Of a DNA stretch of 7,298 nucleotides, positions 3,004 through 7,298 are shown piece by piece; the first letter of the stretch is position 1, and each line of letters starts with the position of its first letter. The stretch lies in assembly GCA_018725485.1 (NCBI GenBank), contig QLUP01000048.1, positions 1-7,298 of the forward strand, in the 5' to 3' direction. The notes beneath the pieces are model-generated. The model did no database searches. It was not told where the DNA came from and worked only from the letters and a program-made list of their open reading frames with translations. The DNA comes from Candidatus Lithacetigena glycinireducens (GTDB lineage Bacteria; Coprothermobacterota; HKB111). Position numbers and translations under genes: made by a program.

Positions 3004-6000
3004 ATGACAAAGGAGATTACTTTAAAGTGTAAGAATTGTGAAAAGCCATTCAGTTATTCTGAAGAGGCTTATCGGTTGATGGCAGAGAAAGGAGAAAGCC
3101 AATTTCTTAGATGCTCAGAATGTCGGCAGTCACACAGTAAAGAAATTAGAGAGGTGAAAATTCCTTATTCCCCTTTAAAGAAGAGAGCTATTCCAGGATG
3201 GAATTTTCATCAACTGGAGTACACGTCTCATGGGGAACGAATTCTCCAAGAAGAGGAGAAGGAAAAAGTTGATTATTCTGAGAACTTGACGATTACTGAT
3301 GAAGAGATTTTAGCTCTTTATCAAAAATTTCAAGAAAATCAGGTAGTGGTGTTAGCTGCTCCTACTGGAGCTGGAAAATCAACTTTTGTTCCAGCCAGAT
3401 TGATTGAGCCTCCTGAAAGTTATTCCGGAGAATTTATTGAATGTTTAATCCGCCAAGGCCAGATAATTATTACTGAACCGAGAATTTTGGCTACTATTCG
3501 AGTTCCTGGAACCACAGCTGATATGTTAGGCTCAAGTGTAGGACCTGGTCATTTGATTGGACATCGACACAGTGGGGAAGATCTCTCTAATCGCTGGAAT
3601 TTAGGGATTACCATTACTGATGGGACTTTACCCAATTGGCTCAGAGAAGGAAAGCTTGATCAATACAGTTTGATTATGGTTGATGAAGCTCATGAAAGAA
3701 GCTGTAATATTGATTGGAATTTGGGAACTTTAAGAAGGGAGTTGCCAAAGTATCCTCAGTTGCGGCTGATCATTTCTTCAGCCACTATTAATACCCAAAA
3801 ATTCTTGGATGCCTTTAGAGAAATGAATGTCTCTGCTGAGCTTCTTGACCTCTCTTATCTTGAAGAAAGGAGAAAGTTCAAAAATTACTTCCATTTTTGG
3901 AAAGATGAGAATATTTATCGGTTATCCAAAGAAGGAAAGTTAGAAAAAGTTAAAGATTGTTATTGCTGGCTTTGTCAGAAATCAATGAAGGAAAAAGAAG
4001 AATTCTGGAAAAACCAGAAAGATGAGATTTCAGAGCCTGAATTACCAGAGATAACAGCTTCTTTAATCACCAAAATCCTTACAGAAACCAAAGAGGGAGA
4101 TATTTTGGTTTTCTTACATGGGGAAAAGGCGATTAATGAAACAGTAAAGAAGATAAGAGCAAGGTGGGGAAACCGAATAGATGCTATTCCAGCCTATCGG
4201 AGAATCCAAGAAGATGTGGAGAGAGAATTAGTTAAAGAAACTACCAAAAGAAGAGTAATTGTTGGGACAAATCTCTTGGAAACCTCCCTAACTCTTCAGG
4301 GAGCAGTCTATGGGATTGACTCAGGTTTTATTAAAGAAGCCAAATGGGAGCCTGAAACCCAAATTTTTACTCTGCCCACAGAGCGTCACAGTCAAGATGG
4401 CAGAAAACAGAGATGGGGGAGATTAGCCAGAACAGAAGATGGTTACATTTACAATCTCTATACCAAAGAGGAATTTGAGAAGGCAGAAAAACATACTGCA
4501 CCAGAAATTACTCGGAGCTGTCTTGAAGATTCTTTAGTCAATCTCAAAGGAGCTGGAATAACTAAGGTTGAGCAATTTCCCTGGATGGAGAGACTTTCTA
4601 GCCATCCCCAGATGGAAAAGGAAATAAAAAGAGCGAACTTAGCCCTGAAAGAAAAGGGGGTTATTGATCAAAAAGAGGAGATTACCGAAAGAGCGCTTGA
4701 GCTCTTAGGTATCCCGAGGCAAGCAGGTGAAGCTTTTTTTTTAGTTTCAGCTGATGAGCAAGGGATTCTCTTTGAGGCAATGATTGCTCTCTGGCTAATG
4801 TCTACTCGAGAAGGAGAAGCCAGAACCGGAGCTAATCTTTATAGTTCTGGTTTAGGTCTTTTAACCTGGGAACCTGAGTGGGATGCCAAAAAGTGGCCAG
4901 CCAAAACCAAAGCAAAAGTCTGGGCCCTACACCAAGGATTGAGAGCAGGTTGTCAAGATGACCTGGATTTTGTGACAAAGTTGGCAGTCTGCTTCAATAA
5001 AGCTCGGGCTAAAGGGTTAGCTAAAGAATGGGCAGAGCACTATTTCATCAACTATGAAAATTTAGAGAAGGTGATCTCTGAGGTAGACGAGCTGATTATT
5101 GAGAAATTCGGAGAAGAAAGAGAAGAATCAGCTCGCGAGATTGATACAACCCAGTTGGATAAAATCCGTTCTCTAATGATAGCTGTCTGGATAGAAAGAA
5201 TAGTAAACCTGAAGCCCGGAGAACCAATTACTTATCCAGTGGCAGGAAAGAAAAAAGTAGGCGTAGTCTCTCGCCTCTGCGCTGGGAATTGGCAGGAAAA
5301 AAAGCAGGCAATAGTGGCAGCAGCTATTGAGGAAAAAGCAATAGTTGATGGTTACCCGCAAAAAGTACCAACTGCTTCCTTTATGGTTCAGCTACCAGGT
5401 CAGGTAAGAAAAGCGGATCAGGCAGGTCTTTTTACTGAGCAAATTTCAATTGACGATTTTACTGAAAGCAAAAGAGAAACCTTTGCTTTGGGTAAGAGAA
5501 TAAGTGACACTCTTGAAGTAAAGATTGATCAGGTAAAGGGAGATCCGGTTGGAAAAGGCGGCTGGATTGTTGGAAAAACAGAAGAAGATTTTGAAATTCC
5601 GATAGAACTGAGAGAAATGAGTCTTTCTCCTTGGGGTCCAGGACTTGAGCGAATTGAGGGCCAAACCTTAACTCTCACCATAAAAGATTTCGATGAAGAG
5701 GGTTTGCCTCAATTAAGCAACGTTGAGAGAATTATTGAAGATCTCAGAAAGCTGAGAGAAGAAATCTCAGAAAGCGAAAGAGCGACTAAAGTAAGCCAGA
5801 GAAACTTTGTTGAACTACCAGGCTTTGTGGTGGAAATAAACGAGGAGAAAGAGAAAGCAGTGGTAGTGGTTCTCAGAGAAAATGGAGTTTTGCATCCTTT
5901 TGAAGTTGCTCAAATCTATGTTCCGGGTAGTGACCTCAAGAATTTGCGAATTGAAGAGGGGGTAACTGTTCGTCTCTTTCGTCGAACTGATAGAGATGAA

Positions 6001-6489
6001 ATTCCTCTTGAACACTTAAATGATGAGGAAATTAAAAGTAAGCCCAAAAACTGGCAGCTTCAAGAAGAGAAAGGGGAAATTCTGGTACCCCTTTGTTTAG
6101 ATGACAAAAATCTCAAAGATTGGCCAGCTCGACCAGAAGCCATTGATTTTGTAAAGAGACACTCTTGGCAGTATTGTTTCAATGCCCAAATTAGAGTTGC
6201 CTTTGTGGCTAAAGCTGAGATTTCTTGGTCACCAATCCAGTATTTGAGAAAATCACAAGACTATGATATTCACAAAATAACTGGAAAATTTATTGGCAGA
6301 AAGGGAGAAAATATAAAAAATTTAATCGCTGAAGAGCCAGCAAGAGTGGAAATTAGTTGTTTCACGGTAACTGTCCGGGCTCAATCTGAAGATGCGAGGA
6401 GAATTGTCTGTCAGAGAGTCAATAAATGGTTCAAAGAGAAGTTTGGTATCACTCTTGAATGGGTTTTTTCCGAAAACAACTTTGAGTAA
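3004..6489 (+). CDS. DEAH-box RNA helicase (HrpA/HrpB-like) with N-terminal zinc ribbon and C-terminal KH domain
   Basis: This is a predicted ATP-dependent RNA helicase of superfamily 2, acting on RNA or ribonucleoprotein in the cytoplasm. Residues 9-12 and 37-40 carry two CxxC pairs around a short aromatic-rich segment, like the small Tbcl-type zinc ribbon. The RecA1 core shows Walker A APTGAGKST (119-127), motif Ia TEPR (157-160), DEAH (227-230) and SAT (259-261). RecA2 shows ILVFLHG (367-373), motif V GTNLLETSLT (421-430) and motif VI QRWGRLAR (469-476). Residues about 500-640 match the winged-helix/HA2 region, and about 645-800 resemble the helical and OB-like C-terminal part of DEAH helicases. 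Segments about 828-905 and 935-1005 look like S1/OB-type beta barrels (tentative). Residues about 1086-1140 form a KH domain with the GxxG loop GRKG (1098-1101). Unusual points are a CxCxxC cluster (319-324) between the RecA lobes, Ala475 replacing the usual Gly in motif VI, and the combination of domains. Helicase identity is firm; the in vivo substrate is unknown. It has its own ribosome-binding site and is followed by a terminator. Confidence 0.95.
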   Translation: MTKEITLKCKNCEKPFSYSEEAYRLMAEKGESQFLRCSECRQSHSKEIREVKIPYSPLKKRAIPGWNFHQLEYTSHGERILQEEEKEKVDYSENLTITDEEILALYQKFQENQVVVLAAPTGAGKSTFVPARLIEPPESYSGEFIECLIRQGQIIITEPRILATIRVPGTTADMLGSSVGPGHLIGHRHSGEDLSNRWNLGITITDGTLPNWLREGKLDQYSLIMVDEAHERSCNIDWNLGTLRRELPKYPQLRLIISSATINTQKFLDAFREMNVSAELLDLSYLEERRKFKNYFHFWKDENIYRLSKEGKLEKVKDCYCWLCQKSMKEKEEFWKNQKDEISEPELPEITASLITKILTETKEGDILVFLHGEKAINETVKKIRARWGNRIDAIPAYRRIQEDVERELVKETTKRRVIVGTNLLETSLTLQGAVYGIDSGFIKEAKWEPETQIFTLPTERHSQDGRKQRWGRLARTEDGYIYNLYTKEEFEKAEKHTAPEITRSCLEDSLVNLKGAGITKVEQFPWMERLSSHPQMEKEIKRANLALKEKGVIDQKEEITERALELLGIPRQAGEAFFLVSADEQGILFEAMIALWLMSTREGEARTGANLYSSGLGLLTWEPEWDAKKWPAKTKAKVWALHQGLRAGCQDDLDFVTKLAVCFNKARAKGLAKEWAEHYFINYENLEKVISEVDELIIEKFGEEREESAREIDTTQLDKIRSLMIAVWIERIVNLKPGEPITYPVAGKKKVGVVSRLCAGNWQEKKQAIVAAAIEEKAIVDGYPQKVPTASFMVQLPGQVRKADQAGLFTEQISIDDFTESKRETFALGKRISDTLEVKIDQVKGDPVGKGGWIVGKTEEDFEIPIELREMSLSPWGPGLERIEGQTLTLTIKDFDEEGLPQLSNVERIIEDLRKLREEISESERATKVSQRNFVELPGFVVEINEEKEKAVVVVLRENGVLHPFEVAQIYVPGSDLKNLRIEEGVTVRLFRRTDRDEIPLEHLNDEEIKSKPKNWQLQEEKGEILVPLCLDDKNLKDWPARPEAIDFVKRHSWQYCFNAQIRVAFVAKAEISWSPIQYLRKSQDYDIHKITGKFIGRKGENIKNLIAEEPARVEISCFTVTVRAQSEDARRIVCQRVNKWFKEKFGITLEWVFSENNFE

Positions 6490-6498
6490 ATTTCACAA

Positions 6499-6528
6499 AG
6501 CCGAGGCGAATATTCTGCCTCGGCTCTT
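6499..6528 (+). terminator. Intrinsic terminator after the helicase gene
   Basis: A 9-bp GC-rich stem (AGCCGAGGC at 6499-6507 with GCCTCGGCT at 6517-6525) encloses a 9-nt loop and is followed by a pyrimidine-rich tail (CTTTATTTCCTC). It starts 10 nt after the TAA stop at 6487-6489. Confidence 0.88.
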
Positions 6529-6660: not shown

Positions 6661-6927
6661 ATGGGAAGACCGCTTAGAATTATTGTTCCTAATTTACCTT
6701 TTCATATCCTTAATCGAGGCAATAATAGACAATCGGTTTTTCGAGAGGAGGCAGATTTTATTTATTATCTTGAACTTTTAAAAAGATACAAAAAAGAGTT
6801 GGGGTTTAAGCTGTTTCACTTTATTTTAATGCCCAATCACACCCATTTTTCCTCTTCTCAAACAGAGGGGAAGACCACAGAAAAGGGAAAAATAGACTGT
6901 AGAAAGGAAATGATAATTTCAGGGTAG
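6661..6927 (+). pseudogene. Truncated RAYT / IS200-like Y1 (HUH) transposase
   Basis: The N-terminus MGRPLRI and the following FHILNRGNNRQSVF are characteristic of REP-associated tyrosine transposases, which nick and join single-stranded DNA at palindromic REP sequences. The metal-binding HUH motif is present as MPNHTHF (H60 and H62). Family resemblance stops at about residue 63 (position 6849); the remaining 25 codons to the TAG at 6925-6927 are Lys/Glu/Thr/Ser-rich and not family-like. The helix with the catalytic tyrosine and the whole C-terminal half are missing, whereas intact members are roughly twice this length or more. The gene is therefore inactive. The likely cause is insertion or rearrangement involving the mobile DNA that follows, since transposase-like remnants begin within about 165 bp. 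The ATG start is secure because it gives the conserved N-terminus. No 3' half is seen in the window. Confidence 0.88.
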
Positions 6928-6953: not shown

Positions 6954-7006
6954 TAGTAGTAGAAAGGTCAAATTATTAATTTTAATTGTAAGATTTTCTA
7001 CTACTA
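6954..7006 (+). repeat. 12-bp perfect inverted repeat with AT-rich loop
   Basis: TAGTAGTAGAAA at 6954-6965 is the exact reverse complement of TTTCTACTACTA at 6995-7006. The 29-nt interior is AT-rich and contains the smaller palindrome ATTAA-TT-TTAAT. It could form a hairpin in DNA or RNA. It lies immediately before the first recognisable transposase codons. It may be an element end, a small inserted palindromic element or a terminator-like structure; I cannot decide among these. Confidence 0.75.
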
Positions 7007-7298
7007 TGCTCTACATTTCAAGAAAGACCCCAAGAACCATCAGACAGATAATGATAGAGGAAGGATTATGGACACTCAGAAGGCGCAAAAAGCCGGATTA
7101 TCGAATCTCTAGATCCCGCAAGGAGTATTACGGCGAAATGGAGCAGTTTGACGGCTCTTACGAATACTGGTTTGAAGAAATGACTTCACTATCAGATTTA
7201 ACAACCAGTGGTACCAACTTACCAAAGAGCAGCCAGCTACCATTCGTCCCAAGGATCGAGTCTTAATAGAAGAAAGACTAGATGGTTCTCTTCAGATC
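7006..7298 (+). pseudogene. ISNCY-like DDE transposase remnant with missing N-terminus, core deletion and frame change
   Basis: In the frame beginning at ATG 7006, residues 4-58 resemble the middle of ISNCY-type transposases: ISRKTPRTIRQIMIEEGLW, then an Arg/Lys-rich stretch, then GEMEQFDGSYEYWFEE, which carries the first catalytic Asp (D49, codon 7150-7152). Homology in that frame ends near 7179. It resumes in the third forward frame from about 7203 with NQWYQL, and VLIEERLDGSLQI follows; these are typical of the family's C-terminal region. The catalytic core with the second Asp and the Glu, roughly 200 residues, is absent between the two parts. The N-terminal helix-turn-helix region, roughly 100 residues, is also missing before 7006, where a TAA (6949-6951) closes the frame. 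The product cannot be active. The remnant runs off the right edge. The family call rests on my recall of conserved motifs. Confidence 0.8.

Follow-up and report, generated by a model that had tools for sequence, protein, structure and literature searches.

A DEAH helicase distinct from HrpA and HrpB belongs to a conserved bacterial cassette of sparse distribution

CoCoNuT systems, a form of type IV restriction with predicted RNA targeting, combine McrBC GTPases and a superfamily 1 (SF1) UPF1-like helicase with RNA-binding folds and nucleases, and optionally with a TerY-P set of VWA, PP2C and kinase genes (PMC11090510). In polymorphic toxin/SUKH immunity systems, nuclease C-termini are swapped behind a constant N-terminal part (PMC3482391). 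The SAVED proteins of CBASS and type III CRISPR (Cap4, Cap5, CalpL, SAVED-CHAT) follow the logic of a sensor paired with a nuclease effector. Here we describe a DEAH helicase gene in a 7,298-nucleotide stretch of Candidatus Lithacetigena glycinireducens (contig QLUP01000048.1; hereafter the window). The gene (positions 3004-6489) encodes 1161 amino acids and lies on the + strand, as do all cassette parts and hairpins located below in the window. Its product belongs to a clade distinct from HrpA (TIGR01967) and HrpB (TIGR01970), and the gene forms part of a conserved cassette of sparse distribution whose gene set and order are well supported. The cassette appears to be undescribed; its parts have known folds, and it would be placed among sensor-effector conflict systems.

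Relatives of the helicase were found by tblastn on a large Streptomyces plasmid (L074, 1561 amino acids, E 1e-85) and on a conjugative Paenarthrobacter plasmid (L075, 1962 amino acids, E 1e-69), with alignments to the window protein that begin at the zinc site, end at residue 725 and show about 30% identity. Both plasmid helicases are preceded, with short overlaps, by two hypothetical genes, here called u2 and u1. Scanning 84,980 species genomes with a u1 alignment yielded 20 loci, a lower bound given by a pattern-based search. At all 20, as on the two actinobacterial plasmids, u1 is followed by a DEAH helicase, and u2 lies immediately upstream of u1 at every locus with sufficient flank. Spacing is tight: u2 and u1 overlap by 1-4 bases in nearly all loci, and most u1/helicase pairs either overlap by 4-19 bases or stand 9-22 bases apart, the two Collierbacteria loci having distances of 129 and 1035 bases. 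Two independent genes kept in a shared order are strong evidence that the neighbourhood is meaningful. One Collierbacteria locus has two reverse-strand open reading frames (ORFs) between u1 and the helicase (L086:10516-11341) that are not present in the other Collierbacteria species (L084).

The 20 loci belong to Actinomycetota (Streptomyces, Nocardia, Rhodococcus, Sinomonas, Nostocoides, Patulibacter and others), Chloroflexota, Bacteroidota, Planctomycetota, Collierbacteria (candidate phyla radiation) and a Brevundimonas metagenome-assembled genome; counting the window's own small phylum, members occur in at least seven phyla. Occurrence within this range is rare. Among 386 sampled genomes, u1 was present in one, the window's own (a 1.24 Mb assembly in 204 contigs), and the other eight of the nine genomes that represent its phylum, including one of the same genus, gave no match to the window helicase. 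First searches of viral and genome contigs returned no close relatives of the whole helicase. Viral contigs gave no confirmed match to the window's upstream ORF, to the u1 and helicase alignments or to the KH end, and phage records contained ordinary HrpA/HrpB only. This rare, broad and patchy occurrence, together with the plasmid copies, suggests that the cassette has moved horizontally.

The window helicase is encoded by 1161 codons uninterrupted by a stop, with a strong ribosome-binding site (AGGAGGAG at 2990) immediately 5' of its ATG and with codon usage and third-position GC content that match the rest of the genome. Its core (3358-4434) retains the full superfamily 2 (SF2) DEAH motif set: motif I (APTGAGKST, 3358-3384), motif II (DEAH, 3682-3693), motif III (SAT, 3775-3792), motif IV (4105-4122), motif V (4267-4293) and motif VI (QRWGRLAR, 4408-4431). 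The W of motif VI is frequent in the family, and the A that replaces its last G is peculiar to the window. A putative winged-helix/ratchet (HA2-type) region, so named from HrpA/DEAH structures, follows at 4471-5163 and ends the conserved part, which by tblastn and alignment extends family-wide to residue 725. The first-pass annotation had described the core as canonical and HrpA/HrpB-like. The core matches the HrpA model at E 9e-65. The scores are far under the equivalog cut-offs, at 219 bits against 722.75 for HrpA and 157.1 bits (E 6.5e-46) against 546.15 for HrpB. Matches in the PDB were to HrpA and eukaryotic DEAH chains, with E values from 2e-48. In a tree of 35 cores (20 family members and 15 HrpA/HrpB, E. 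coli HrpA and HrpB among them), the 20 family helicases fall on one side of a branch with SH-aLRT support of 100, and all HrpA/HrpB fall outside. Within the family, the window helicase clusters with members from Chloroflexota, Bacteroidota, Planctomycetota and Collierbacteria (support 83). It is not a stray HrpA variant but a member of a separate clade. The family shares with HrpA and HrpB the helicase core, the motif set and the ratchet-type region, and differs from them in its clade, in an N-terminal zinc site present in all 20 members, in its S1, KH or Jag_N tails and in always adjoining u1.

The zinc site of the window helicase is a predicted treble clef of zf_Tbcl type (C9, C12, C37, C40; 3016-3138). 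The zf_Tbcl model (PF13451) scores 24.3 bits on the N-terminal fragment, just above its cut-off of 24, and 19.0 bits on the whole protein. C9, C12 and C37 are invariant in the 20 members, which divide evenly at position 40 into ten with C and ten with H; ligand function at this position is therefore kept throughout. A pattern of C/C/C/(C or H) would be that expected of a real zinc site, and it bears out the zinc ribbon that the first-pass annotation had proposed from these four residues. A candidate second site (C319/C321/C324) was rejected because its cysteines are not conserved in the family.

Beyond the conserved part, family members carry tails of different composition. The tail of L075 has four S1 domains and Jag_N (1.1e-41), that of the Chloroflexota member L078 has S1 (1.8e-9) and three KH domains (102.6 bits, 9.3e-30), and that of L084 has two S1 domains (1.1e-20); L077 and L080 have S1, L081 has Jag_N and L090 has KH (26.6 bits). 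S1 is clear in the five named here and sub-threshold in L074 and L092. Since the tails vary between members, the tail is an exchangeable RNA-binding array. In the window, residues 770-1161 (the C-terminal ~390) have no significant similarity to the tails of relatives. A KH domain is predicted at 6280-6411, with GRKG at 6295-6306 (residues 1098-1101), and KH_1 (PF00013) scores 19.1 bits (E 0.0011), under the Pfam cut-off of 21.5 that L078 and L090 exceed. The KH domain that had been called clear is thus backed by its GRKG motif and by relatives but is sub-threshold in the window itself; taken with the family, it fits an exchangeable RNA-binding tail. An OB/S1-like part had also been proposed, and a possible segment was placed by eye at 5506-5718, but S1 (PF00575, cut-off 22) gave no match in window fragments covering residues 720-1060 and was found in relatives only. 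A single-sequence model of residues 590-1161 was unusable (predicted local distance difference test score, pLDDT, 36). Two broader claims held up better. The pairing of zinc ribbon and KH is indeed not that of HrpA or HrpB, and a motor with several RNA-binding modules does suggest a dedicated substrate, RNA or ribonucleoprotein (RNP), possibly ribosome- or mRNA-related as was also proposed. Relatives show both ends of the architecture, with tails swapped between members.

Upstream of the helicase, the window holds one long ORF (2-2866; 954 amino acids shown, its 5' end beyond the contig) that matched no family in Pfam, PADLOC, NCBIfam or PHROGs. Its residues 618-922 match plasmid u1 (E 3e-14) and residues 109-339 match plasmid u2 (E 2e-11); against the u2 of L079 the match reaches E 3.8e-27. 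Judged by these matches, the ORF is a fusion of u2 (2-1561) and u1 (1580-2863) homologues and part of the helicase's cassette. An apparent u2-u1 fusion in L085 was rejected as a GC-rich frame artefact. The u1 profile (A7) recovers the window u1 at E 2.7e-85, the window being one of its 18 rows.

An AlphaFold2 model of the u1 homologue from L078, built with 21 aligned sequences, reached pLDDT 84.3. VIA-align placed residues ~207-414 of this model on SAVED/CARF domains in all of the first 26 rows, with Z from 8.9 to 5.9; models that lack a clear match typically reach 7-8, so that a value near 9 exceeds them only moderately. The first unrelated row had Z 5.4. These data support, at moderate strength and through the homologue rather than the window copy, a SAVED/CARF-like fold for u1, which in the window would occupy ~2075-2863. 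Invariant u1 residues include S-x-R-H, D, N and the motif TG-x(3)-A (in the window, SISMRHVNLD at 2408-2437 and IFQTGLEPAVVG at 2672-2707), and their predicted placement resembles that of the strand-loop-helix ligand site of CARF proteins. The domain may bind a small nucleotide.

The u2 protein has a core of 350 residues with no known family. SUKH, a domain of immunity proteins, is significant at the u2 N-terminus of L078 (7.9e-14) and L080 (5.7e-11), and in these two alone. Pfam detected no SUKH in the window's own u2 piece, the first ~120 residues of which resemble, by eye, the end of a SUKH-like domain (alignment A6). In L079 (4098-6101), a different N-terminal domain of ~270 residues stands in place of SUKH, and the u2 N-terminus may be exchangeable, too.

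All 19 loci with enough flank have a further gene, u3, upstream and close to the start of u2, which gives the cassette the order u3, u2, u1, helicase; u3 is on the same strand except at four loci in which it is opposite. Its products begin with M[AG]C (MACGNNHVSR, MGCQNHGD, MGCGNY, MGCAKP), the two Collierbacteria having MSQCC/MSQAC instead, and their variable terminal domains are often nucleases. Of the 17 u3 proteins tested, 6 carry a PD-(D/E)XK-type motif, where 500 shuffles averaged 0.14 and never exceeded 2, and the u3 of L092 is an Endonuclea_NS_2 nuclease (41.5 bits). One u3 subtype (L088, L089, L091, L093, L094 and L075) ends in a small domain that contains HVHV(I/V) and belongs to no known family; it is possibly a non-nuclease effector. 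Additional regulatory genes, of kinds also met in conflict systems, accompany some cassettes. Immediately 3' of the helicase, L090 (6687-10073) has VWA, PP2C and kinase genes that resemble the TerY-P triad, and two Nocardia loci (L083:7918-10460 and L085:15198-17875) have genes for a coiled-coil protein and an Hsp70-like protein; a kinase is the downstream add-on in L091. By eye, the neighbours in L087 (3-3120) and L095 (19265-20488) include a Z1-domain ATPase, an HNH protein and a C5 DNA methyltransferase, which suggests defence islands.

PADLOC 2.0.0, NCBIfam 2026 and Pfam contain no named system that any component matches. Searches of the window proteins with PADLOC, NCBIfam and PHROGs, like those of the relatives with PADLOC and NCBIfam, returned no system name. 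A literature search, outside which lay preprints and most subscription journals, found no description of the cassette. Among described systems, CoCoNuT has the same kinds of add-ons (PMC11090510): both join a helicase to RNA-binding folds and nucleases, with TerY-P genes in L090, but where CoCoNuT has McrBC GTPases and an SF1 helicase, the cassette has a SAVED-like protein and a DEAH helicase of SF2, and no McrBC was seen in it. With the SAVED systems it shares the predicted fold of the u1 C-terminal domain and the logic of sensor and nuclease effector. It differs from them in placing sensor and effector on separate genes, in a u1 that escapes the Pfam SAVED model and is partnered with an RNA-type helicase, and in that no CRISPR or cyclase genes were seen in the cassette. 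The short constant N-terminus and swapped nuclease C-termini of u3, and the SUKH domain of some u2, recall polymorphic toxin/SUKH systems (PMC3482391); unlike these, the cassette shows no secretion or trafficking domains and is tied to the helicase and the SAVED-like protein.

We consider the chances about even that the cassette is an RNA-triggered, nucleotide-gated nuclease conflict system with the helicase as its RNA-handling motor. Through its zinc ribbon and its interchangeable tail of S1, KH or Jag_N, the DEAH motor would engage a particular RNA or RNP, candidates being a stalled ribosome and RNA that is foreign or abnormal. By remodelling this substrate at the cost of ATP, it would alter the state of a u1-u2 partner complex, in which the SAVED/CARF-like domain of u1 may bind a small nucleotide and u2 may hold or guide the effector. 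The complex would then release or activate u3, whose variable C-terminal domain is a predicted nuclease in part of the members, leading to nucleic-acid cleavage, upon which the infected or competed cell would stop growing or die. We infer the RNA trigger, the nucleotide ligand, the physical contact between the parts and the conflict or defence role from the adjacency of u1 and helicase at 20 of 20 loci, the single clade, the RNA-binding tails, the u1 fold, the u3 nucleases, the SUKH domains in the u2 of L078 and L080, the patchy spread with its plasmid copies, the conflict-type add-ons and the absence from the window's genus and phylum mates. The stronger version, in which this is an undescribed immune class whose helicase senses foreign or abnormal RNA through exchangeable tails and whose SAVED-like, nucleotide-binding partner passes on the signal to release a diversified M[AG]C-start nuclease effector, we regard as tentative and rather doubtful.

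Several observations weigh against a conflict system of this kind. The window has u2 and u1 as a single fused ORF, and a terminator-like hairpin (2866-2891) separates them from the helicase, which, with another such hairpin on its 3' side (6499-6525), is its own transcription unit. No u3 is visible there because the contig begins inside u2, and an overlap search for the missing 5' neighbour found none. The u1 fold has, besides the moderate margin in Z, a weak Foldseek result (best E 0.008 with the L078 model, Cap5, Cam1, Cap4 and SAVED-CHAT near the top), and Pfam SAVED (PF18145) matched neither the u1 proteins nor five genomes, the five-genome control being empty as well. PADLOC 2.0.0 has no model for u1 or u2 and gave only weak Cas3-type helicase matches. 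The cassette showed no nucleotide cyclase, several u3 proteins lack a recognised nuclease, the defence-island context was judged by eye at few loci, and the two Collierbacteria copies are located among ordinary genes.

Some of the same evidence could be read as a module for ribosome rescue or for the repair or quality control of RNA, without a conflict role. Stalled ribosomes or damaged RNA would then be remodelled by the helicase, u1 would detect a nucleotide alarm signal and u3 would serve to trim RNA. The core is nearest to HrpA among named families, HrpA chains occur in multi-chain PDB entries, and S1, KH and Jag_N occur as modules in proteins associated with ribosomes and RNA. A housekeeping function, however, sits poorly with presence in 1 of 386 sampled genomes and on plasmids, with swapped u3 nuclease domains and with SUKH in the u2 of two members, and we think this reading unlikely. 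To an addiction or competition module of plasmids or other mobile elements, with u3 as toxin, SUKH-bearing u2 as immunity protein and u1 and helicase as regulators, we give similarly little credence. The conjugative and Streptomyces plasmid copies, the polymorphic u3 C-termini, SUKH in L078 and L080 and the insertion sequence (IS) fragments 3' of the window helicase would all suit it; an RNA helicase of 1000-2000 amino acids and a SAVED-like protein would be unusual luxuries for an addiction pair, SUKH is undetected in most u2, and the Collierbacteria copies appear chromosomal. That the gene encodes an ordinary HrpA-type helicase with a decorated tail and chance neighbours is very improbable: the HrpA match at 9e-65 is outweighed by the sub-equivalog scores (219 against 722.75 and 157 against 546) and the separate clade with support of 100, and the same neighbours in the same order across phyla contradict it.

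The IS fragments in the window comprise a broken IS200/Y1 transposase (6661-6927, 26.1 bits) that stops after ~88 residues and a truncated ORF (7006-7266) that, by reading, resembles part of an ISNCY-type transposase (GEMEQFDGSYEYWFE) and has no Pfam match.

If the proposed conflict system is real, bacteria have a cassette in which a DEAH helicase of RNA type is coupled to a nucleotide-sensor fold and to interchangeable nucleases, in a logic parallel to that of the RNA-sensing helicases of animal immunity. Orphan families that are now hypothetical (u1, u2 and the M[AG]C proteins) would then receive function-testable names across at least seven phyla.

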